Of a stretch of 12,987 bases of DNA, positions 2,476 through 12,837 are shown piece after piece. Under the pieces are notes generated by a model, which did not search any database, was not told the origin of the DNA, and was given only the letters and a program-made list of their open reading frames with translations. The stretch covers positions 1-12,987 of the forward strand of contig PLMI01000129.1 in the NCBI GenBank assembly GCA_003142435.1. Direction: 5' to 3'. This stretch comes from Coxiellaceae bacterium. GTDB lineage: Bacteria > Pseudomonadota > Gammaproteobacteria > UBA9339. Both the position numbers and the translations under genes were made by a program. Position 1 is the first letter of the stretch. The number at the start of each line of letters is the position of its first letter.

Positions 2476-3108
2476 ATGAAACTGTTAATAGTTGGTGCCG
2501 GAGGTATGGCACGATGTGTTTATTCTTGGCTGTTGGACGATATCAAAAACAAAAATAATTTACATATCGGAGGTTTTCTTTCTGATTATCCTCATGATCT
2601 AGATAGTTACTCATACCCTAAAAAAATCGTAGGTAATATTCATGACTATGAACCAAAAAAGGATGAACTTCTTGTGTTTGCAATTATGTTACCAATGGAT
2701 AAAAAGAAGGTTTTGACACGATTGCTTCAAAAAGGAGCTTCTTTTTATTCTTTAATTCATCCAAGTGCCATAATAGGTTCAAATGTTAAAATTGGTGTAG
2801 GTTGTGTTGTGGCACCAAACTGTGTAATAACGTCAGACGTAAATATTGGTGACTTCGTTTTTTTAAGCATATCTGTAAATATTGGACACAGTATCAAAAT
2901 TGGCGATTATGTATCTATTAATGGATGGGCTGGTGTCGCTGGCAACGTAACTATTGGTGATGGTGTGCTACTAGGAGTTGGTAGTACGATAATTCCCAAA
3001 AGGCATATCGGTGAAAATGCCACAATTGGTGCTGGAAGTGTGGTAATAAATCACGTTGATGCGAATACCACAGTATTTGGCAATCCGGCAAAAAGAATTA
3101 GCTTATAG
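2476..3108 (+). CDS. NeuD/PglD-like sugar O/N-acyltransferase
   Basis: A 210-residue two-domain acyltransferase. Residues 1-90 form the small Rossmann-like domain (LLIVGAGGMAR at 3-13) that binds the nucleotide-sugar acceptor in PglD. From about residue 97 a left-handed beta-helix of hexapeptide repeats follows (IGSNVKIGVGCVV, VNIGDFVFL, IKIGDYVSI, VTIGDGVLL, IGENATIGAG). His138 in VNIGH matches the catalytic His of the family. The C-terminal VFGNPAKRI is the usual end of these enzymes. Family members transfer acetyl, or other acyl groups, from CoA or ACP to an amino or hydroxyl group of a sugar. Here an ACP, a KAS III and a ketoacyl reductase are adjacent on the opposite strand, so a hydroxyacyl donor is likely (inference). 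It is the only plus-strand gene in the window, and its end overlaps the KAS III gene by 11 bases. Confidence 0.88.
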   Translation: MKLLIVGAGGMARCVYSWLLDDIKNKNNLHIGGFLSDYPHDLDSYSYPKKIVGNIHDYEPKKDELLVFAIMLPMDKKKVLTRLLQKGASFYSLIHPSAIIGSNVKIGVGCVVAPNCVITSDVNIGDFVFLSISVNIGHSIKIGDYVSINGWAGVAGNVTIGDGVLLGVGSTIIPKRHIGENATIGAGSVVINHVDANTTVFGNPAKRISL

Positions 3109-4069
3109 TAATAATAGTTCCACCCCATGAATAACCGACGCCAAAACCTATTAACATTACACAATCACCATGTGTGACTTTTTTTTCTTGCAGCGCGTTT
3201 TTTAACGCTATCGGTATGCTCGACGAGACAGTATTACCAGTACTCTCCAGGCACAAATAAAATTTTTCTTGTGGTATTTTTAATTTCTCGCGCAAGTAAT
3301 CTAGCATGTATTTATTAGCTTGATGAAAAATGAACAAATCTATATCGTTGATCGTTTTATTTGATGAATGAAGCAATTTATGTACCAATGGGACTACTAC
3401 TTGTAAAGTGAACACAAAAATTTCAGATCCATTCATAAACAATCTTGGTTTAATTGATTGATTCCGGCTTGCTCCTCCTTTAACAATAAGGTTATTTGCC
3501 CCCTTGCCGTCAGTGCCAAAAAAAACAGGACCAATTAATGGTTCTGCGCTATCTGTAGCTTGTATTAAAGTAGCAGCAGCTGCATCGCCAAAAATAGTCA
3601 TCACGGATTTATCATCAGGTTTAATGTATTTACTATAGGTTTCTGCAGTAATTAACAAAATATTGCGCGCCTGGTTACTTTCTATTAATCCTTTGGCTAA
3701 TGAAACACCATACACATATCCCGAACAGCCTAAGTTAAAATCTAAAGCGCCACATGACGTAGGAAAAGATAGCTTATCCTGTAAAATACATGCTGTTGTT
3801 GGCAAGAAATAATCGGGACTTTGCGTACAAAATAATAAAAAATCTATATCCGCAGGCTTACAGGTATTAGATGATTCGAATAATTTTTTTGCCGCCATAA
3901 ATGCCAAATCTGAAGCGCATTCGCTATCATCTGCAATATGTCTTTGTTCTATACCGGTTTTATCCTTAATTTTAGCGGCTAGCCAATCTGGAAACAGTTT
4001 TTCCAATTGTTTATTGGTCAATACCTTTTTAGGTAAATAATATTCAATTTCTTTTATTGCTGCATACAT
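3098..4069 (-). CDS. 3-oxoacyl-ACP synthase III (FabH-like)
   Basis: A 323-residue thiolase-fold enzyme of normal FabH length. The catalytic triad is visible: Cys115 in NLGCSGYVYG, His249 in FIFHQANKYM and Asn279 in STGNTVSSSIP. The glycine-rich end GFGVGYSWGG is also typical. KAS III condenses a CoA-bound starter (usually acetyl-CoA) with malonyl-ACP to give a 3-ketoacyl-ACP. The gene is six bases after a FabG-like reductase and close to an ACP in the same run, with no other fatty-acid genes. This points to a dedicated short-chain acyl pathway for sugar acylation and not to the housekeeping fabH. It is the last gene of the long leftward run, and its stop lies inside the converging NeuD-like gene, with no terminator hairpin between them. 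Confidence 0.92.
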   Translation of the reverse strand: MYAAIKEIEYYLPKKVLTNKQLEKLFPDWLAAKIKDKTGIEQRHIADDSECASDLAFMAAKKLFESSNTCKPADIDFLLFCTQSPDYFLPTTACILQDKLSFPTSCGALDFNLGCSGYVYGVSLAKGLIESNQARNILLITAETYSKYIKPDDKSVMTIFGDAAAATLIQATDSAEPLIGPVFFGTDGKGANNLIVKGGASRNQSIKPRLFMNGSEIFVFTLQVVVPLVHKLLHSSNKTINDIDLFIFHQANKYMLDYLREKLKIPQEKFYLCLESTGNTVSSSIPIALKNALQEKKVTHGDCVMLIGFGVGYSWGGTIITIS

Positions 4070-4075
4070 AAATTT

Positions 4076-4834
4076 CTAACGGGCTGTGTAACCACCGTCA
4101 ACCACAAGGTTTATTCCTGTTATCCAACGAGAAGTATCGGCTAACAAAAATGCCACAGCATAAGCTACATCTATTGCTTTGCCTTGACCTAAAGGCATAG
4201 CAGAAACATTTTTGTTTTTTTGTTCTTCAGTTAAGATTGTGTCTAATTCATCGAGCATTTCAGTTTGTACCAAGGCAGGAGAAATGCAATTTACTCTAAT
4301 TTTATAACGAGAAAACTCTATGGCAAGTGATTTTGTTAAAGCTATTATTGCACCTTTACTGGCGGAATATACAGAAACACCAGCGTCCCCAACCATTCCC
4401 AAAACTGAGGACAGAAAGACTAAAGAAGAATTTTTTTGATATACCCCTTTTTGCCGAAAAGCTTGAGCTAAAGCAATTGCTGCATTGACATTGATAGAAA
4501 ATGTTTCTTCAATATCTCCTCTTTTAACGAATTGCACAGGTTGCGTTTTTTGTATTCCGGCGCTATGTACTAATCCATGTAAAGCCCCTGCTTTTTGAGA
4601 AATATTTTTCATCCATAAGGAAAGATCATTAAATACAGTCAAATCCTGAGTTTCTATTAGATGTTGAGTTCCAATTAGTAAGGTTTGAGTTTTTCGTAGT
4701 TCACTTTCACGCCTAGCTACTAATATTACGCGAGCACCAAGTTTGCTCAATAAGATTGCAACTTCTTTGCCAATTCCCGAAGAAGCTCCCGTCACCAAAA
4801 TATTACGTCCAGTCATGTCTAAGGGATTTATCAT
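4076..4834 (-). CDS. FabG-like short-chain dehydrogenase (predicted 3-ketoacyl-ACP reductase)
   Basis: A classical SDR of 252 residues. The cofactor site is TGASSGIG (15-22), and ARR at 40-42 after the second strand suggests NADPH. Asn115, Ser142/143, Tyr156 and Lys160 (YSASK) form the catalytic set. The ending GINLVVDGGYTAR is typical of FabG relatives. SDR sequences do not fix the substrate. The 4-base ATGA overlap with the ACP gene upstream and the 6-base gap to the KAS III gene downstream make reduction of a 3-ketoacyl-ACP to a 3-hydroxyacyl-ACP the best reading. A second ATG at 4816 is possible, but neither start has a clear Shine-Dalgarno; the overlapping one fits translational coupling. 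Confidence 0.88.
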   Translation of the reverse strand: MINPLDMTGRNILVTGASSGIGKEVAILLSKLGARVILVARRESELRKTQTLLIGTQHLIETQDLTVFNDLSLWMKNISQKAGALHGLVHSAGIQKTQPVQFVKRGDIEETFSINVNAAIALAQAFRQKGVYQKNSSLVFLSSVLGMVGDAGVSVYSASKGAIIALTKSLAIEFSRYKIRVNCISPALVQTEMLDELDTILTEEQKNKNVSAMPLGQGKAIDVAYAVAFLLADTSRWITGINLVVDGGYTAR

Positions 4835-5096: not shown

Positions 5097-6113
5097 TTAA
5101 GAATAGTTACTCAAATAATAGTTTATAGTTGTCAACAAGCCATCAAACAAATTAAATTTTGGCACCCAACCTAATTCTTTCTCAATTTTACTCGTGTCAA
5201 TTGCATATCTAAAATCATGACCAGGACGATCATTAACAAAAGTAATTAAATGTTCACAAGACTTTTCTTTTGATAATTTTTTATTCATAATAGAACAAAT
5301 CATTTTTACTAGAGAAAGATTATCTAGCTCACATTTTCCGCCTATGTTGTAGGATTCTCCAATTTTACCATTTGTTAAAATTTCCCATATAGCATTACAA
5401 TGATCTTCAACAAATAGCCAATCACGAATATTGGAGCCATCACCATAAATTGGAATGGTTTTTTGTTCAATGCAACATTTAATTACTGTGGGTATTAATT
5501 TTTCCCAATGCTGATATGGCCCATAATTGTTAGAGCAGTTCGATAAAGTTATCGGTAATCCATAAGTACGAAAATAGGCATATACTAAATGATCCGAAGC
5601 TGCTTTAGATGCTGAATACGGAGAGCTTGGGAAATAAGATTTTTTTTCATCGAATGGAGGATCTGTTTTATTTAATTCGCCATACACCTCATCAGTGGAG
5701 ATATGATGAAAACGGCAATTTTTCGCGCTCCATTTTTTTTCTTTTAACCAAAAACTTTGAGCTGCTTCGATAAGTGTAAATGTACCAATTATATTAGTTT
5801 GAATAAAATCATAAGGCCTTATTATCGAATGGTCAACATGGCTTTCAGCAGCAAAGTGTACAACAGTATCTATTTCGTGTTTGCGCAATAAATCTAAAAT
5901 TAATGCGCTATCACAAATGTCGCCTTGAATAAAAATATGATCTTTGTTATTTCGCAGACTTTCTAAATTTTTTATATTTCCAGCATAGGTTAATTTGTCT
6001 AAACTAATAACTTTGATGCAAGGATAATTAGCTAAGATAAATCTGACAAAGTTGCTGCCGATAAAACCTGCTGCACCAGTAATTAGTATTGTCTTAGGCT
6101 TATATAAAATCAT
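5097..6113 (-). CDS. rfbB: dTDP-glucose 4,6-dehydratase
   Basis: An extended SDR of 338 residues that converts dTDP-glucose to dTDP-4-keto-6-deoxyglucose, the branch point for many deoxy and amino sugars. It carries GAAGFIG (13-19) for [12 protein letters not shown] (86-94), the complete catalytic Thr140-Asp141-Glu142, Tyr166/Lys170 (YSASK), NNYGPYQ (195-201), RDW (230-232) and [12 protein letters not shown] (295-306). One local difference from common RfbB is HW in the place of FP after NNYGPYQ; the paralogue also lacks FP. The start overlaps the rfbA stop as ATGA. With rfbA it forms the usual pair, but rfbC and rfbD are absent here, so the end product is probably not dTDP-rhamnose, or those genes are elsewhere. 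Confidence 0.95.
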
Positions 6114-6982
6114 TGTTTTTCTGTTAATATTTTAAGTAAATAGTTTTTATAATTACTTTCTGGCATGTTGCTAGCAAGTTTTTGCAATTTATGCGAGGTA
6201 ATGTAATTCATGCGCCAAGCCAATTCTTCTGGACATGCAACTTTTAAACCTTGTCGTTCTTCCAAAACTGAGAAATAATGCGATGCTTCTAATAACGATT
6301 TATGGGTGCCAGCATCTAACCAAGCAAATCCTCTGTTAATTTTAACAACATTCAAGTTACCTTGTTTTAAATAAACTTCATTAATATCGGTGATTTCTAA
6401 CTCTCCTCTTGTAGAAGGTTTCAGTGACTTGGCAATAGAGATCACATTATTATCATAAAAATACAATCCCGTTATAGCGTAATTTGATTTAGCTACTTTG
6501 GGTTTTTCTTCTAGCGCAATCGCACCATCATTTTGGTCAAATATAACTATCCCGTAACGTTCAGGGTCATTTACATAGTAGCTAAAAATAGTCGCTTGAT
6601 TTTTATTATTTTTTGCTTTTTGCAATAATGTACCTAAACCATGTCCATAAAAAATATTATCACCTAAAATCAAACACACACGACTAGCACCAATAAATTT
6701 CTCTCCTATAATGAAAGCTTGAGCTAACCCCCTCGGATGTGGTTGTTCGGCATAAGATAACGATATTCCCCATTGATCTCCTGATCCTAAATGTTTTTTA
6801 AAAGCCGGCAAATCTCTAGGAGTTGATATGATCAATATTTCCCTAATTCCCGCCAACATTAATGTAGTTAGCGAATAATAAATCATGGGCTTATCGTAAA
6901 TCGGCAATAACTGTTTCGTAATATACTCAGTTACAGGATATAGTCTTGTGCCACTCCCACCAGCAAGAATAATACCTTTCAT
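6110..6982 (-). CDS. rfbA: Glucose-1-phosphate thymidylyltransferase
   Basis: A 290-residue nucleotidyltransferase of normal RmlA length, making dTDP-glucose from dTTP and glucose-1-phosphate in the cytoplasm. Visible hallmarks are the nucleotide loop [11 protein letters not shown] (8-18), [45 protein letters not shown] and [11 protein letters not shown]. It follows a GtrB-like gene by 11 bases and overlaps rfbB by four. The upstream ribosome site is weak. Nothing is unusual in the protein. Confidence 0.96.
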
Positions 6983-6993
6983 ATTATTATTTC

Positions 6994-7926
6994 TTACCCC
7001 ATATTTATCCGCTCTTTTTCTATTACAAGCGGCCGTTTTAGTGTCTGTGTATGAATTGCTGATATATATTCGCCAAGCAAGCCAATAAAGAAAAGCTGAA
7101 TTGACGAAAAGAAAAAAAGACCTATTAATATAGGCGCCGTTCCAAGGCTAAAGCTATTCCAAAAAATAAGCTTCAAAAATAGAAAAACTAACGACAATAA
7201 TAAACTAATGATTGAAAGTAAAAAACCAGAAATGGTCATAATGCGGATAGGGATTTTAGAATGTCCAGTTACACCGAGCATAGCCATGTCAAACAAGGTA
7301 TAGAAATTATTTTTGGTTGCGCCATGCTTACGTGCTGGTTGTTTATACGGAATTCTTGCAATCTCGAAGCCAATTTCAGATATTAATCCTCGAAAATAAG
7401 GATATGGATCGTCTATTTTACGTATTATTTCCATTACTTTTTTGTCATATAAACCAAATCCCGTGAAATCTCTAATTAGTGGCGTTTCCGCGATTTTCGT
7501 TATGAATTTATAATATGCTTTACGCAAAAAAAACAATAAGGAATTTTCTTCGCTCTTGGCTTTAACACCAATAACTATTTTATAACCCTCCTCCCATTTT
7601 TTTATGAACTCACTTATTAGTTCAGGGGGATCTTGCAAATCCGCAACAATTGAAATTACAGCGTCACCTTTAGCTTGCAGTAAGGCATAAGATGGAGAGC
7701 GAATATGGCCAAAATTACGGGAGTTTACTATTATTTTTACATTATTATCCTTTGCAGCAATATCTTTTAAAATGTGAACGGTATTATCTGTTGAGCAATT
7801 ATCTATGAATAAATGCTCATAAGCATATTGTGGTAACTTAGCAAAAACTGCTTTAACTTGCTCATAAACATCACGAATGTTTTCTTCTTCGTTGTAACAC
7901 GCGGTAACCACTGAAATCAATTTCAT
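6994..7926 (-). CDS. GtrB-like polyprenyl-phosphate glycosyltransferase (GT2), copy 2
   Basis: A 310-residue GT2 enzyme with the same plan as the copy at the left end but clearly divergent. The GT-A domain has [12 protein letters not shown] (6-17), [10 protein letters not shown] (40-49) with DNCS in place of the usual DDGS, VADLQDP (94-100) with the metal Asp, and [11 protein letters not shown] (199-209). Two membrane helices lie at about 228-252 and 262-288. GAGG eight bases before the ATG is a good ribosome site. The start overlaps the GtrA gene by four bases. GtrA-GtrB pairs make and flip a polyprenyl-phosphate sugar that a third, membrane-bound transferase uses for side-branch addition; no such third gene is directly adjacent here, so the partner may be the membrane protein at the left end (inference). 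Confidence 0.92.
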
Positions 7927-8327
7927 GTTCCAACCCTCACCTTTGTAAAAACGAAATTTTTATTCAAAAGATATGCAGAAAAAGCACAAACGATAGTTGC
8001 CAGAGCACCTGCAATATAAGTATTAAAGGAAATCAACAGAAATAATTTTATAAGAGATATATTGAATATGTATTGCACTGCATAAACTATAATAAACTTA
8101 AACAATAATTTATTGTTAGAATTTTTAAAAACTATTTTGCCTGTTGTTTTGAAATTAAATAAAACACCAAGGCAAGTTGCTAACAATACTGCTAGTGTGT
8201 AATGCATTCCTAAAAACACAAACAAAGCAAATAAACTATAACCAAATAAAGTATTCAGTAACCCAACTAAAACAAAAAGTGCAAAAGTATTGTTTTTTAC
8301 GTAATTAGATAAAATCTTTATTTTCAT
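7923..8327 (-). CDS. gtrA: GtrA-family membrane protein (polyprenyl-phosphate sugar flippase)
   Basis: A 134-residue, very hydrophobic protein with four predicted membrane helices (about 15-37, 43-58, 75-98 and 103-121). The family signature VGLLNTLFGY (21-30), the NF of GVLFNF (54-59) and the closing YLLNKNFVF (119-127) are all typical of GtrA. The family is held to flip polyprenyl-phosphate sugar from the cytoplasmic to the periplasmic face. It overlaps both neighbours by four bases (ATGA), and directly precedes its usual partner, a GtrB-like transferase. Confidence 0.9.
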   Translation of the reverse strand: MKIKILSNYVKNNTFALFVLVGLLNTLFGYSLFALFVFLGMHYTLAVLLATCLGVLFNFKTTGKIVFKNSNNKLLFKFIIVYAVQYIFNISLIKLFLLISFNTYIAGALATIVCAFSAYLLNKNFVFTKVRVGT

Positions 8328-9142
8328 TGATCAATTCTTGCGTTTTGGTTTATTTTTTCTATAGCTGTTTTATATCTATTTTCCATCATCACGATACGAT
8401 CTTCATCTTCTTTAGAAATTGAATGATAGTAATCTCTTTTATTTTTTAGCCACATAATCTCAAATTCAACAGCTTTAAAAAATGCTACTTCTTTATTATT
8501 CAACGCTCCGGGGCATGAAAAGATAACTTTTCTTGTCTCAAATCTGTCTAAATGTCCAGCAGGAAAGGCTTTGAAAAAAGGCAAAGAGTCGACGGATACA
8601 GCTCCGCCTATAACAACGTCTAATCCTTTCTCTTTTGCCTTCTTCGCTAAGTAAAGAGATTTATCAATCATATCTTGTCCATTTACTGATTCTCTGCCCA
8701 ATCCCAAAGAGCCAGTAAAATCAACACGTCCAATAACTATACCATCTAAATTTTTTATCTCTGGAATTTCTAGCATTTCATCAAAATTATTGTACGTTGT
8801 TATAGTTTCAACATTTATGAGGATTTCAATATCATCTAGTGATTTTCCGTATGCTGTGTGCGCTGCTTTTATGAATTTTTTTAAAGCATAAGGAGTTTCA
8901 ACCATTGGTGCTATGATACGGTGAGCACCTAAACTAATTGCATCAAACATATCCTTAATAGCTTCACATCCACCTATTTTTATATTTAATTCTAGATTTG
9001 CAGCAGATGTCACATCTTTTAAACGCATAGCTTCTTCTAAACGAGTTCCTTCTGCTTCAAATTCAGCTTTAATACCACTAACATGAAATTTCTCTTTTAG
9101 TTCCATTAATAATGCTACCATTTGTTTTTCTAATGTGTTCAT
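8324..9142 (-). CDS. HpcH/HpaI-type aldolase (citrate lyase beta superfamily)
   Basis: A 272-residue TIM-barrel enzyme. Metal ligands of the family are visible as Glu112 in INVET and Asp141 in IGRVDFTGSLGLG. Family members add or remove pyruvate (or a CoA-linked acetate unit) on aldehydes, giving 2-keto-3-deoxy acids. The Arg that contacts the pyruvate carboxylate in HpaI (in an RVP context) seems replaced by Lys55 in NIKIGG, and after the barrel there is a charged helical tail (about 215-265) longer than in HpaI. It is therefore a separate subgroup whose substrate is unknown. The start is supported by GAGGG eight bases upstream. It follows the DHQ-synthase-like gene by 43 bases and overlaps GtrA. 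The context suggests a role in making an unusual glycan building block, not in aromatic catabolism. Confidence 0.82.
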   Translation of the reverse strand: MNTLEKQMVALLMELKEKFHVSGIKAEFEAEGTRLEEAMRLKDVTSAANLELNIKIGGCEAIKDMFDAISLGAHRIIAPMVETPYALKKFIKAAHTAYGKSLDDIEILINVETITTYNNFDEMLEIPEIKNLDGIVIGRVDFTGSLGLGRESVNGQDMIDKSLYLAKKAKEKGLDVVIGGAVSVDSLPFFKAFPAGHLDRFETRKVIFSCPGALNNKEVAFFKAVEFEIMWLKNKRDYYHSISKEDEDRIVMMENRYKTAIEKINQNARIDQ

Positions 9143-9185
9143 AGCTTATACCCTCTTTATTTAATTTATACACAACATAGAATAC

Positions 9186-10331
9186 TTAAAATAATTTTTT
9201 AAGAATTTCATTAACATTATCTTTAAATTTACCATTTAAGTCTGACTCATAACCAATTGTTTTACCTATTTTTTCCAAAAAAACTAAATTCAGTATTGAA
9301 CCTTTAGTTTTTTTATCTTTTTTTAGTAAAGCTATTAATTTAGCTAAATCGATATTTGCCATTATATTCATAATGTCGTCGGTCAACAAATCTCGACATT
9401 GTTGGCTAATAATATCATTTTCATCAACATTAAGGACATTATTTGTACAACTTAATTCATTGACCAACATCATACCAATTACTACTGCTAAACCATGAGG
9501 TATCTGATATGACGACAATGCCTCTATAGCATGTCCAAATGTATGACCATAATTTAGGCTTTTTCTATAATTAAATTCAAATTCATCTACTTCAATCACC
9601 GCTTTCTTGACATTTAAGGACGCAAGAATTAATTCAAAATAATTATTGAAATCTCTTAACTTACCATTATTAACGTTCTTTAAATAAGTATTAAAAAAAT
9701 CTTTGCCGCCTAAAACCAATAATTTCAAAATTTCACCTAAACCAGATTGAAGATGAAACTGTTCCAAAGTTTTTAAAAAATTTATATTAATAATTACCTT
9801 ATATGGAGCAGAAAACAGAGCAATTTGATTTTTAGCATTGCGATAATTTATCCCCGATTTCCCTCCAATACAACTATCGCACATGGAAAGCAAAGTCGTA
9901 GGAAAAAGGATCCATTTAATACCCCTTTTATAACAAGCTCCAACAAAAGCTCCAACGTCTTGTATTATTCCACCGCCAACAACAATTAAAGTTTCTCCTT
10001 TGGTAAATCCGCGATCACATAAAAAATCTATCACTTTAATTGCTCCGTCAAGGGTTTTAAATTCTTCAGAAGCTTCCGCTAAAAAAACCCGATTTGAATC
10101 AATGATCGAATTCGCTTTATAAAGCTCATACACTTTTTTGTCTATAAGTAACACATTATTAGGGTTTTGCGATAATAATTCTTCGATCTCCGAAAAAGGA
10201 TTGGAAGCAATACTTGTGGAAACTAAATATGGTTTTGGTGATGATTGTACTTCAAAAGTACTTGCAGCGAGCGCAGTTTGCGGTACTTTGAATTTTCTAC
10301 CTTCGAAATCGAATGTAAATTCTTTACTCAT
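9186..10331 (-). CDS. 3-dehydroquinate synthase-like sugar phosphate cyclase
   Basis: A 381-residue member of the DHQS/sugar-phosphate-cyclase family, with about 30 extra N-terminal residues. NAD and substrate motifs are GGGIIQD (119-125), FPTTLLSMCDS (143-153) and GGKSGIN (156-162). The metal ligands Glu200 (GLGEILK), His263 (NYGHTFGH) and His279 (PHG) are kept, as are the candidate catalytic Lys203, Arg256, Asn260 and His267. The usual HGEA reads HGLA, a change at Leu281. DHQS cyclises a 3-deoxy-2-keto heptulosonate 7-phosphate; relatives act on other sugar phosphates. Being between an SDR and an aldolase, with no shikimate genes nearby, it is probably an accessory enzyme and not the housekeeping AroB. 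It could still be a second AroB. The start has GGGAGG nine bases upstream and overlaps the SDR stop (ATGA). Confidence 0.85.
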   Translation of the reverse strand: MSKEFTFDFEGRKFKVPQTALAASTFEVQSSPKPYLVSTSIASNPFSEIEELLSQNPNNVLLIDKKVYELYKANSIIDSNRVFLAEASEEFKTLDGAIKVIDFLCDRGFTKGETLIVVGGGIIQDVGAFVGACYKRGIKWILFPTTLLSMCDSCIGGKSGINYRNAKNQIALFSAPYKVIININFLKTLEQFHLQSGLGEILKLLVLGGKDFFNTYLKNVNNGKLRDFNNYFELILASLNVKKAVIEVDEFEFNYRKSLNYGHTFGHAIEALSSYQIPHGLAVVIGMMLVNELSCTNNVLNVDENDIISQQCRDLLTDDIMNIMANIDLAKLIALLKKDKKTKGSILNLVFLEKIGKTIGYESDLNGKFKDNVNEILKKLF

Positions 10332-11002
10332 TCTTGAAATCCTCCCGTTGTATAGCCACCGTCAGCAATAATATTCTGTCCATTTATATATTTATTATGA
10401 TCAGAACAAAGAAAATAGGCGATTTCAGCAATATCATTAACACTTGCCAATTTTCCTAAAGGAACTTTGTTTGCGAAACTTTTTATAGTGGCTTCATCAT
10501 TATTCTGACGAGTTAATTTGGTATCAACAAAACCGGGTGAAAGAGTATTGCATTTCACACCATATTTACCATATTCAAGCGCTAAGGATTTTATCATACC
10601 TGATAAACAATGTTTTGAAGAGACGTACGAAAAACGTCCTTTTCTAGCTATTGAGCCATAAATAGAAGACACTCCAAGAATATAACCATTTTTACGATTT
10701 TTAAAATTCTCCAATAAAAATTTTACAATTTGATAAAAAGAAAAAGTATTTATGCACATCGTTTGATAAAGATCTTCAAAAGAAATATTTTCTATAGGTT
10801 TTGGGAAATTAATTGCAGCACAATGCACAAAAACGTCAACTCCACTTTTAAGCTTTTTCATATAGGAATTTACTGATTCCATTGAGGACAAATCCATTTC
10901 AGTATGTGTTGGAGAAATAACATTATCTTCATGTTTAATAAATTCATCGTTGATGGCTTTGCCAATATCTCCACTTGCTCCAGTTAAAAGTACATTTCTC
11001 AT
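10328..11002 (-). CDS. Short-chain dehydrogenase/reductase (SDR), substrate unknown
   Basis: A classical SDR of 224 residues from the ATG at 11002. The cofactor site is TGASGDIG (7-14), CAAIN follows the fourth strand (61-65), and Asn85, Ser112/113, Tyr126 and Lys130 (YVSSK) form the catalytic set. The end GQNIIADGGYTTGG is normal for the family. An in-frame TTG at 11014 would add four residues, but the GGAG ribosome site overlaps that codon and sits six bases before the ATG, so the ATG is preferred. The gene follows the ThDP enzyme by 20 bases and overlaps the cyclase by four. It is shorter and clearly different from the FabG-like SDR further on and probably works on a keto intermediate made by the neighbouring ThDP enzyme, cyclase or aldolase (inference). 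Confidence 0.87.
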   Translation of the reverse strand: MRNVLLTGASGDIGKAINDEFIKHEDNVISPTHTEMDLSSMESVNSYMKKLKSGVDVFVHCAAINFPKPIENISFEDLYQTMCINTFSFYQIVKFLLENFKNRKNGYILGVSSIYGSIARKGRFSYVSSKHCLSGMIKSLALEYGKYGVKCNTLSPGFVDTKLTRQNNDEATIKSFANKVPLGKLASVNDIAEIAYFLCSDHNKYINGQNIIADGGYTTGGFQE

Positions 11003-11008
11003 GCTTTT

Positions 11009-11012
11009 CTCC
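11009..11012 (-). promoter_or_regulatory. Ribosome binding site that decides the SDR start
   Basis: GGAG on the minus strand, six bases before the ATG at 11002. It overlaps an in-frame TTG at 11014, which a ribosome bound here could not use. It supports the 224-residue form of the SDR. Confidence 0.75.
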
Positions 11013-11022
11013 AAAAAATATA

Positions 11023-12837
11023 TTATTTCTCAGTAAGAGGTTTGATTATCATATTTTGCAATAATTCTTCTTGACTTAAAAACGGTGCCAAATCTTCTAA
11101 AGGGTTAGATACCATTTTTCCATTAGGGAGTCTTTTAGAGGACGATCTTGGCGCAAAAGGTTGATTTATAGTTAACATAACTTCAGCTATAACTGGATCA
11201 TCGTGAGATAAGACATCCTTCACAAAAGCAGATAAATCTTTATGTTTAGCGCACTTTGCATAACGTAATCCATACGCGCAAGCCAGTTTTTCAAGATTTG
11301 GGAAACCTAAGCCACTTTTTTCGTCACAACCTACTAAATCACCGCCAAAAAAATTATTCTGAGTTTGCCTTATTGAATGATACCCCTGATTATTCAGCAC
11401 AAATATCTTTAAAGGATATTTATGATAAAAAACCATAGCCAATTCCTGAAGATTTAACTGTAAACTTCCATCGCCAGCAATACACACTATTTTTTTTAGT
11501 CCCAAAGCTTCGCATGCCCCAATTGCTGCCGGTAAATCATAACCCATTGCAGCGCAACCTGAATTGGTAAAAAGACGTTGTCCTTTTTTAATCTTAATTG
11601 TTTGAAAAGAAATAACACAAGCACTGCCGTTTCCACAAACAACAACTTGATCTTCTAATAATTGATCGCTTAATACATCCATAAAACAATAAGGATTAAC
11701 TAATGTTTCACGTTGCCAGTATTCTGGTAATACTGCTGGATATTTTGCTTTACGATCTCTTCCCCACTTTACCCATTCTGTTTTATCTAGAGTTTTTTTC
11801 TTTTTCAATTCATCAAGCATTTTTGGTATGAAATCTTTGAGGTTAGCCGCAATAGGCATATCAATTTTAAGTGTTGGTTTTTTTAATTCACACTTATCAA
11901 CGTCAACCATTATTTTATAAGCCTCACGCGCAAAACTATTCCATGCATAACCTATTTGACGAATATTTAAACGCGATCCTAAAACTAATAACAAATCAGC
12001 GTTTTGCACTACAAAATTGCCTGATCTATCGCCGACTGTTCCGGGTCTTCCGCAATAATATGGGCAGTCATCAGTTAGAACGTCATGCGCATTCCAGGCT
12101 GTGACCACTGGAATTTGAAGAGCTTTAACAAGTTCTAGAAATTGATCATGCATACCTGCAGTCCTAACTCCACTTCCTGCAAGCAAAACGGGCCTTTTGG
12201 CTTCATTAATTCTATCTATTACCTGGACAATAGTAGATGAATCAATAACAGGAATTTTTTCTGCATTTCTATCCGTAGTCGGATCGTACGAAGAAAGACT
12301 CAAAGGATCAATGGAAGCCGCCTGAACGTTCAACGGAATATCCAGCCAAACCGGTCCAGGACGTCCATGAAGCGCCAGTAATAATGCTTTTTCTAAATGA
12401 TATCTTATTGTTTGCGGATCCGTAATCATTACCGCATATTTGGTCATTGGTGCAACTGAGCGAACAATATCGAACTCCTGATCTCCTAATTGGCGCAAAG
12501 GCAAATTGGTACTTGCAACGGTTGTGTCGTAGCGAACCTGGCCTGAAAGAACGATCATGGGAATTGAATCCGTCCAAGCGCCAAAAACTCCAGTCATGGC
12601 GTTAATTCCACCGGGGCCAGTCGTTACATTTACTACTGCCGGCTTGCCTAATAATCTCGCGTAACTTTCTGCAGCAATGGCACAAGCTTGTTCGTGATGG
12701 CTAAAAACTACTTTAAGTTTTTTGTGTTTACCCAAAGCATCGTTTAAATGCATGGCTCCACCGCCAACCATCATAAAAACATGTTCTATTCCATGTTCAA
12801 ACAAAAAGTTCGCTATGTAATCACTTAATCTAATCAT
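11023..12837 (-). CDS. Thiamine-diphosphate enzyme, acetolactate-synthase large-subunit-like
   Basis: A 604-residue ThDP enzyme with the three-domain plan of acetolactate synthase. The N-terminal Pyr domain has the catalytic Glu49 (SHHEQACA) and GPGGINAMTG (75-84). The central domain spans about 195-345. The PP domain carries the cofactor motif from GDGS (455-458) to NN (482-483), preceded by SGCAAMGYDLPAAIG. There is no small-subunit gene (ilvN) or other branched-chain gene here, so a housekeeping IlvB is unlikely. Related enzymes in glycan loci, such as YerE of yersiniose synthesis, add a two-carbon unit from pyruvate to a keto sugar; that role here is inference. It is first in the leftward run. 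No Shine-Dalgarno is clear before the ATG at 12837, but the N-terminus begins where the family's does (RLSDYIANFLFEHGIEHVF). Confidence 0.9.
   Translation of the reverse strand: MIRLSDYIANFLFEHGIEHVFMMVGGGAMHLNDALGKHKKLKVVFSHHEQACAIAAESYARLLGKPAVVNVTTGPGGINAMTGVFGAWTDSIPMIVLSGQVRYDTTVASTNLPLRQLGDQEFDIVRSVAPMTKYAVMITDPQTIRYHLEKALLLALHGRPGPVWLDIPLNVQAASIDPLSLSSYDPTTDRNAEKIPVIDSSTIVQVIDRINEAKRPVLLAGSGVRTAGMHDQFLELVKALQIPVVTAWNAHDVLTDDCPYYCGRPGTVGDRSGNFVVQNADLLLVLGSRLNIRQIGYAWNSFAREAYKIMVDVDKCELKKPTLKIDMPIAANLKDFIPKMLDELKKKKTLDKTEWVKWGRDRKAKYPAVLPEYWQRETLVNPYCFMDVLSDQLLEDQVVVCGNGSACVISFQTIKIKKGQRLFTNSGCAAMGYDLPAAIGACEALGLKKIVCIAGDGSLQLNLQELAMVFYHKYPLKIFVLNNQGYHSIRQTQNNFFGGDLVGCDEKSGLGFPNLEKLACAYGLRYAKCAKHKDLSAFVKDVLSHDDPVIAEVMLTINQPFAPRSSSKRLPNGKMVSNPLEDLAPFLSQEELLQNMIIKPLTEK

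Follow-up and report, generated by a model that had tools for sequence, protein, structure and literature searches.

The subject of this analysis is a 12,987-base stretch of DNA, the entire contig PLMI01000129.1 from the draft genome of a Coxiellaceae bacterium (the window), and in it four linked genes for a thiamine diphosphate (ThDP)-dependent carboligase, a short-chain dehydrogenase/reductase (SDR), a sugar-phosphate cyclase, and an HpaI-fold aldolase. We tentatively favor the view that this module is a dedicated route to a surface-glycan nucleotide sugar that is C-branched and probably bears a carbocycle. What is directly observed is the linkage of the genes, the placement of their products in families, the co-occurrence of these families in other loci, and the presence of cytidine diphosphate (CDP)-sugar genes in the same genome.

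Four linked genes recur together

An earlier reading of this DNA (the original prediction) had described four tightly linked, co-directional genes, and an open reading frame listing indeed places all of them on the minus strand at the same positions (Table 1). The distances it gave, 20, −4, and 43 bases and then −4 to a GtrA gene, were also reproduced; the 20 holds with an ATG start of the SDR gene. This ATG, at 11002, has GGAG in front of it, and with a TTG start the SDR gene would be 10328-11014. The gene run goes on past GtrA with a family 2 glycosyltransferase (GT2; −4), RmlA (11), and RmlB (−4). The four genes open this run, the window ending 150 bases upstream of the ThDP gene. The source genome (G000) is 1.49 Mb and 94% complete.

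Relatives were taken from GTDB genomes (80 loci kept), IMG/VR (51 loci), and further genomes. We scored 71 cyclase loci, of which 65 are non-redundant at 90% (three near-copy sets merged). The nearest relative fetched, in Gammaproteobacteria bacterium GWE2_42_36 (L016), has the same order, ThDP-SDR-cyclase-aldolase-GtrA-GT2, with identities of 67, 64, 52, 80, 65, and 75%, respectively. All four families occur together in 10 further non-redundant loci, three bacterial and seven from IMG/VR. Their order is ThDP-SDR-cyclase-aldolase in the window, L016, and L157 and aldolase-SDR-cyclase-ThDP in L110 (with one extra gene), L130, L135, L136, L143, and L146. L098 reads aldolase-SDR-NeuB-ThDP-cyclase. 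L164, in a 2.6-Mb genome rated 100% complete, reads aldolase-SDR-cyclase-ThDP-RfbF-RfbG-RfbH in reading direction. Among 68 presumed aroB loci, none had the ThDP enzyme, the aldolase, NeuB, HMGL, or FGGY, and one had an SDR. The co-occurrence on which the original prediction depended is thus borne out by the comparison of neighborhoods (10 further loci versus 0/68). Given the shared gene order of L016 and the return of the four families in 10 loci besides the window, L016 among them, the linkage is not a matter of chance.

A cyclase of this clade was present in 1/11 genomes of the window's order (E values up to 1e-70), and cyclase matches above 500 bits were present in 3/369 genomes of its class. 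Because of this patchy distribution, the module probably moves horizontally. The IMG/VR contigs with the module are classed as viral by that collection. In a test of the flanks of L130 and L136 that did not seek structural phage genes, 5/10 proteins matched a PHROG, and three proteins flanking L136 matched endonuclease or nuclease families (165.6, 73.1, and 53.1 bits).

The ThDP enzyme groups with JanthE

The closest solved relative of the ThDP enzyme is 8rph (400 bits), followed by 5ahk (257), which we take to be PpYerE, and IlvB (228). The enzyme carries the canonical GDG motif. In a tree, it and 21 other module enzymes grouped with JanthE, and a 100/100 branch set this group off from 5ahk and five acetolactate synthases, with long branches flagged; the enzyme is therefore not an IlvB, a point on which the original prediction had also hung. 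The genome's second TPP_enzyme_C match is partial and lies inside a long frame. An acetolactate synthase (IlvB/G/I) was rejected on the same 100/100 separation and on a TIGR00118 score of 327.8, against a cut-off of 538.

Published work identifies 8rph as JanthE (PMC12188165) and describes YerE-like enzymes as taking an acyl group from a 2-oxo acid and coupling it to CDP-4-keto-3,6-dideoxyglucose (PMC12247030). PMC12247030 also gives 4-hydroxy-2-oxo acids as the preferred donors of ErwE and MMAR_2332, and JanthE is reported there and in PMC12188165 to accept 4-hydroxy-2-oxovalerate with benzaldehyde. The window enzyme resembles the JanthE/YerE-like lyases of yersiniose, erwiniose, and caryophyllose branching in its tree grouping with JanthE and in the CDP-3,6-dideoxyhexulose genes of its genome. 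Unlike those systems, the module adds a cyclase, an SDR, and an aldolase, 5ahk groups elsewhere, and the substrate is a predicted one.

The cyclase stands apart from AroB

The cyclase tree held 70 sequences, the row of 2-deoxy-scyllo-inosose synthase (DOIS) and L164 being long branches. The window cyclase falls among 51 glycan-locus rows, which a branch of 100/99 parts from 12 AroB, four sedoheptulose 7-phosphate (SH7P) cyclases, one DOIS, L025, and L029. This separate clade agrees with the original prediction, which required a cyclase outside ordinary AroB. Three residues distinguish the clade: C154 in 51/51 rows (S or A in AroB), Q124 in 48/51 (G or T in AroB; E in L016 and two others), and G199 in 50/51 (mostly A in AroB). 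L025 and L029, on the AroB side of the tree, lack all of these.

The site residues of the 3-dehydroquinate synthase (DHQS) type are all present in the cyclase: K158, K167, N168, E200, K203, K242, R256, N260, H263, H267, H279, and K340. Their roles are assumed by A. nidulans DHQS numbering, and K242/R256 are presumably the carboxylate-binding pair of DHQS. K242, R256, N260, H267, and K340 are kept in 53/53 glycan-type rows and in 12/12 AroB rows. In the four SH7P cyclases, positions 242, 256, 260, and 267 are M, K/A/E/S, D, and P, and position 340 is not lysine; the DOIS row (n = 1) has K, G, E, H, and N at 242, 256, 260, 267, and 340. That the DHQS-type residues are kept here and missing in SH7P cyclases fits a 2-oxo-acid phosphate as the substrate. 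The enzyme looks capable of DHQS chemistry and is kept apart from AroB, with which it shares Pfam domains and active-site residues. It differs from AroB in its separate clade, in C154/Q124/G199, and in a genome in which chorismate synthase was not found.

Of the six NCBIfam models listed, TIGR04425 (AroB-related putative sugar phosphate phospholyase, cyclizing) scored highest with the cyclase, at 324.4, ahead of the aroB model TIGR01357 at 262.4. TIGR04425 is thus its best curated family, yet both scores are below their cut-offs (400 and 305). TIGR04425 labels itself a hypothetical equivalog, and a literature term search found no publication on it.

Known assignments were tried and rejected: AroB on the tree, the TIGR01357 score, and the chorismate synthase result; SH7P cyclase on its separate clade and on the M, non-R, D, and P that 4/4 of those enzymes have at 242, 256, 260, and 267; and DOIS on the G256, E260, and N340 of its sole, long-branched row.

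Chorismate synthase was not found in the window's genome (94% complete), with 14/14 control genomes positive. It was not found in the genome of L016 either, whose completeness is not stated; the six other module genomes, of eight searched, were positive. A search with DAHP_synth_1, the family of 3-deoxy-D-arabino-heptulosonate 7-phosphate (DAHP) synthase that presumably also holds KdsA, gave only a C-terminal fragment in the window's genome and nothing in that of L016, the type II DAHP synthase family being outside this search. Full-length matches were present in two other module genomes, G480 and G407, one in G480 near chorismate synthase. These results bear on whether the module is a replacement aromatic route, with the cyclase as AroB and the aldolase as the source of DAHP. 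In keeping with that idea, the cyclase is the sole DHQ_synthase match found in the draft genome. The chorismate synthase result in two genomes, the tree, and the six module genomes that have chorismate synthase and so need no replacement all count against it, and we consider it highly improbable, indeed refuted as far as draft genomes allow.

A divergent aldolase

The aldolase matches HpcH_HpaI over the cut-off, has the HpaI fold, and retains the metal-ligand positions E112 and D141; K25, E29, and K55 are invariant residues specific to it. In fold and metal-ligand positions it is like the class II pyruvate aldolases HpaI and YfaU. It is unlike them in sequence, with 11-20% identity and equivalog scores of 21-27 bits against cut-offs of 369-441. 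HpaI sensu stricto was rejected on a TIGR02311 score of 21 (cut-off, 368.8). On a plasmid of Ilyobacter polytropus (L166, 14001-14774), a relative with 33-34% identity lies amid genes for aconitase, PrpF, isocitrate/isopropylmalate dehydrogenase, and 2-hydroxyacid dehydrogenase, a context that hints at small 2-oxo acids as substrates of this family.

Partners of the cyclase with and without the ThDP enzyme

For the aldolase slot, we counted HpaI-like, NeuB-like, and 4-hydroxy-2-oxovalerate-aldolase-like (HMGL) enzymes, families that yield 2-oxo-3-deoxy (4-hydroxy-2-oxo) acids. Such an aldolase is present in 20/22 loci with ThDP enzyme and cyclase but in 2/43 cyclase loci without the ThDP enzyme (Fisher p = 1.7e-12, on rows that are not independent). 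Counted among the 43 are L025 and L029, which fall with AroB in the tree, and L140 and L141, which score low; dropping these four leaves 2/39 with an aldolase. Within the ThDP loci, the aldolase is HpaI-like in 10/22 and NeuB-like in 7/22 (L098 has both), and 4-hydroxy-2-oxovalerate aldolase is the best family in 4/22. An SDR is present in 20/22. L022 and L024, from Lachnospiraceae AB2028 and NC2004, which are probably rumen isolates, are loci with the ThDP enzyme, SDR, cyclase, and an enzyme of the aldolase slot. An FGGY kinase accompanies 9/11 ThDP loci with NeuB or HMGL and 0/9 HpaI-only loci, as expected if the cyclase needs an added phosphate unless the aldehyde already supplies one.

The loci without the ThDP enzyme have other partners. 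A GmhA-like isomerase (scores from 40 bits accepted) occurs in 32/43 of them versus 0/22 ThDP loci, a CTP-transferase in 30/43 versus 1/22, and a class III aminotransferase in 19/43 versus 1/22. On a tree of cyclases with known context (38/43 non-ThDP loci used), the ThDP label changes 6 times, 4 of these forced by well-supported branches, so the link between cyclase and ThDP enzyme has been gained or lost repeatedly. We read SDR plus cyclase as the shared core of several glycan pathways, to which this type adds a ThDP carboligase and an aldolase that makes its donor. The distribution of the aldolase points at least as much to supply of the ThDP enzyme's donor as to supply of the cyclase.

The four genes might instead be mere neighbors in one glycan island, some making a branched sugar of the yersiniose type and others an unrelated cyclitol. 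Pathways are mixed in surface-glycan islands, and SDR and cyclase stand without the ThDP enzyme in many loci, with the CTP-transferase and aminotransferase frequencies given above. We nevertheless think this improbable, as the four-gene loci keep their genes next to or close to one another in several different orders and the ThDP label changes 6 times on the cyclase tree, 4 of these changes being forced.

Some loci show further arrangements. Seven IMG/VR loci (L104, L106, L108, L116, L119, L124, and L144) share a near-fixed order, with one or two extra genes: RfbH-like, epimerase, CTP-transferase with cupin, SDR, cyclase, class III aminotransferase, GmhA-like, epimerase, and 4,6-dehydratase. 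This is a second cyclase pathway, without ThDP enzyme or aldolase. K203 is H in 8/8 sampled cyclases from class III aminotransferase loci and also in L160. A third partner set, found in L023, L097, L122, L159, L160, L161, and L163, consists of an inositol-dehydrogenase-like enzyme (GFO/IDH/MocA), a D-2-hydroxyacid dehydrogenase, and a GmhA-like protein, two to three per locus.

Genes for a predicted CDP-sugar acceptor

CDP-glucose 4,6-dehydratase scored over its cut-off in 11/11 bacterial ThDP-plus-cyclase genomes searched (7/7 and 4/4), against a background of 95/398 Pseudomonadota, with two module genomes among them; other phyla also contribute module genomes. RfbF, RfbG, and RfbH adjoin the module in L016 and L164, as do RfbF, RfbG, and a DegT enzyme in L157. 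In the window's genome, contig C44 carries, in the order of L016, RfbF (73% identical), RfbG (68%), RfbH (70%), and an epimerase (57%) whose gene is cut off by the contig end. The epimerase gene of L016 overlaps the beginning of its ThDP gene. The RfbG reading on C44 (L182, 2562-3383) stops early near an unresolved base, and the contig also carries purB, by translation.

A proposed route to a branched sugar

Given these families, the aldolase would couple pyruvate with an aldehyde, probably phosphorylated, to form a 4-hydroxy-2-oxo acid. Going by its nearest characterized relatives, the JanthE/YerE-like ThDP enzyme would decarboxylate this 2-oxo acid and attach the remainder to a C-4 ketone; the acceptor would be a CDP-4-keto-(3,)6-deoxyhexose from RfbF, RfbG, and RfbH, and the outcome a tertiary alcohol. 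The cyclase would oxidize, eliminate phosphate, and close a carbocycle, with the SDR reducing or oxidizing a neighboring carbon. GT2 and GtrA would then load the sugar onto polyprenyl phosphate and carry it across the membrane. The order from aldolase to ThDP enzyme to branched CDP-sugar is the best supported, because the donor preference of the YerE-like enzymes ErwE and MMAR_2332 matches the class of acids that these aldolases make.

A fully linear version of the route is one we rate as unlikely. Here, the aldolase (or a NeuB-like or 4-hydroxy-2-oxovalerate-type enzyme plus a sugar kinase) would give a phosphate-ended 2-oxo-3-deoxy acid, the ThDP enzyme would swap its carboxylate for the CDP-dideoxyhexose at the C-4 ketone, and the cyclase would run DHQS chemistry on the attached chain, turning the branch into a cyclohexanone for the SDR to reduce. 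If true, the route would end in a sugar that bears a C-linked carbasugar branch, and its cyclase would act on a nucleotide-sugar-bound chain. We know of no pathway with such a linear aldolase-ThDP-cyclase-SDR route.

In the order suggested by the original prediction, which is possible if somewhat doubtful, the aldolase would make a DAHP-like 2-oxo-3-deoxy acid phosphate, the cyclase would turn it into a dehydroquinate-like carbocyclic acid for the SDR to reduce, and the ThDP enzyme would add two carbons to the ring ketone or serve a separate branched sugar. Consistent with this are the five DHQS-site residues, kept in every glycan-type row unlike in SH7P cyclases, and the DAHP_synth_1 results for the genomes of the window and L016, where DAHP may not come from AroG. 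The GmhA-like isomerase and the aldolase, moreover, alternate between loci without and with the ThDP enzyme, as if two routes fed one cyclase substrate. However, 41/43 cyclase loci without the ThDP enzyme have no such aldolase nearby, so the cyclase seems not to need one, and G480 and G407 carry the aldolase despite their full-length DAHP_synth_1. What stood of the original prediction is a conserved module in a glycan operon, outside aromatic and branched-chain metabolism, as judged by trees and loci; neither a cyclase within AroB, nor a ThDP enzyme with IlvB, nor a lack of co-occurrence was found. Its proposal that the aldolase feeds the cyclase did not become established; in many loci the cyclase has no aldolase of these kinds close by.

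Several observations weigh against the branched-sugar route that we favor. The K242/R256 pair is kept throughout the glycan-type rows, yet decarboxylation by the ThDP enzyme would remove the carboxylate. No aldolase was found in the ThDP loci L017 and L018, though both are near contig ends, and NeuB is present in L023 and L097, two loci without the ThDP enzyme. L018 nonetheless carries an FGGY kinase, and that kinase is missing from L139 and L158, both of which have NeuB. The 150 bases upstream of the window's ThDP gene do not read as an epimerase end in any frame, and C44 and the window contig (C132) are not shown to be adjacent. In virus records, which may be fragments, CDP-glucose dehydratase was over its cut-off in 0/24 (12 with the ThDP enzyme), the best score being 246.9 against 278.45 (record of L100). 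RfbH-like genes do not single out the ThDP loci (14/22 versus 16/43, p = 0.065). Lastly, 5ahk fell on the acetolactate synthase side of the long-branched ThDP tree instead of joining JanthE, so it is JanthE that justifies the name YerE-like.

Relation to known carbocyclic sugars

Bradyrhizose and caryose, carbocyclic sugars of lipopolysaccharide, resemble the proposed product in being carbocyclic and part of the cell surface, but neither ring is known to have the CH2 left by ring closure of the DHQS type. In PMC4743980, an insertion in gdh, a 4,6-dehydratase gene of Bradyrhizobium, abolishes the bradyrhizose O-antigen, polar effects not being excluded, and the genes of bradyrhizose synthesis are stated to be unknown. 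A 2015 list of sugar-phosphate cyclases (PMC4426668) comprises DHQS, aminoDHQS, DOIS, EEVS, 2-epi-valiolone synthase, and DDGS. These have defined products; for the large glycan-locus clade, with its recurrent partners in bacteria and virus-classed contigs, we found none. With such a pattern of partners, a few proteins would suffice to test the chemistry. The module may be a route by which carbocyclic or branched surface sugars not yet described are made, and it would supply ThDP enzymes with predictable 2-oxo-acid donors for tertiary alcohol synthesis.

Other genes of the window

Table 1. Genes of the run that the module opens, with window positions
Product	Position	Strand	Basis
ThDP-dependent carboligase, JanthE (YerE-like) side of tree	11023..12837	-	604 aa; TPP_enzyme N/M/C (Pfam)
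SDR oxidoreductase	10328..11002	-	adh_short_C2 PF13561, 143 bits; NAD motif TGASGDIG and YxxxK in sequence
Sugar-phosphate cyclase, glycan-locus clade	9186..10331	-	381 aa; DHQ_synthase and DHQS_C (Pfam)
Divergent HpaI-fold class II (metal) pyruvate-type aldolase	8324..9142	-	272 aa; HpcH_HpaI 40.1 bits (cut-off 25)
GtrA-like membrane protein	7923..8327	-	PF04138, 56.1 bits; also adjacent in L016
GT2 polyprenyl-phosphate glycosyltransferase (PgfS/ArnC-like)	6994..7926	-	PF00535, 94.3 bits; NF047588, 188.8 bits, below cut-off 500
Glucose-1-phosphate thymidylyltransferase (RmlA-like)	6110..6982	-	by translation only
dTDP-glucose 4,6-dehydratase (RmlB-like)	5097..6113	-	by translation, STDEVYG

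A second RmlB-like copy, at 1370-2428, is 67% identical to the one at 5097-6113 and has STNEVFG in place of STDEVYG. The Asp of STDEVYG, which we presume to be catalytic, is Asn in this copy, which, judged from the motif, may no longer be a dehydratase. Between the ThDP gene and the end of the contig (12838-12987), upstream of that gene, a short palindrome-like element, CGCC...GGCG, was seen by eye; it may be a dispersed repeat that made the assembly break here. At 3098-4834, a beta-ketoacyl-ACP synthase III gene lies beside an SDR gene in the glycan operon, and a gene for a NeuD-like acyltransferase adjoins on the opposite strand; these genes possibly provide an acyl substituent on the glycan.

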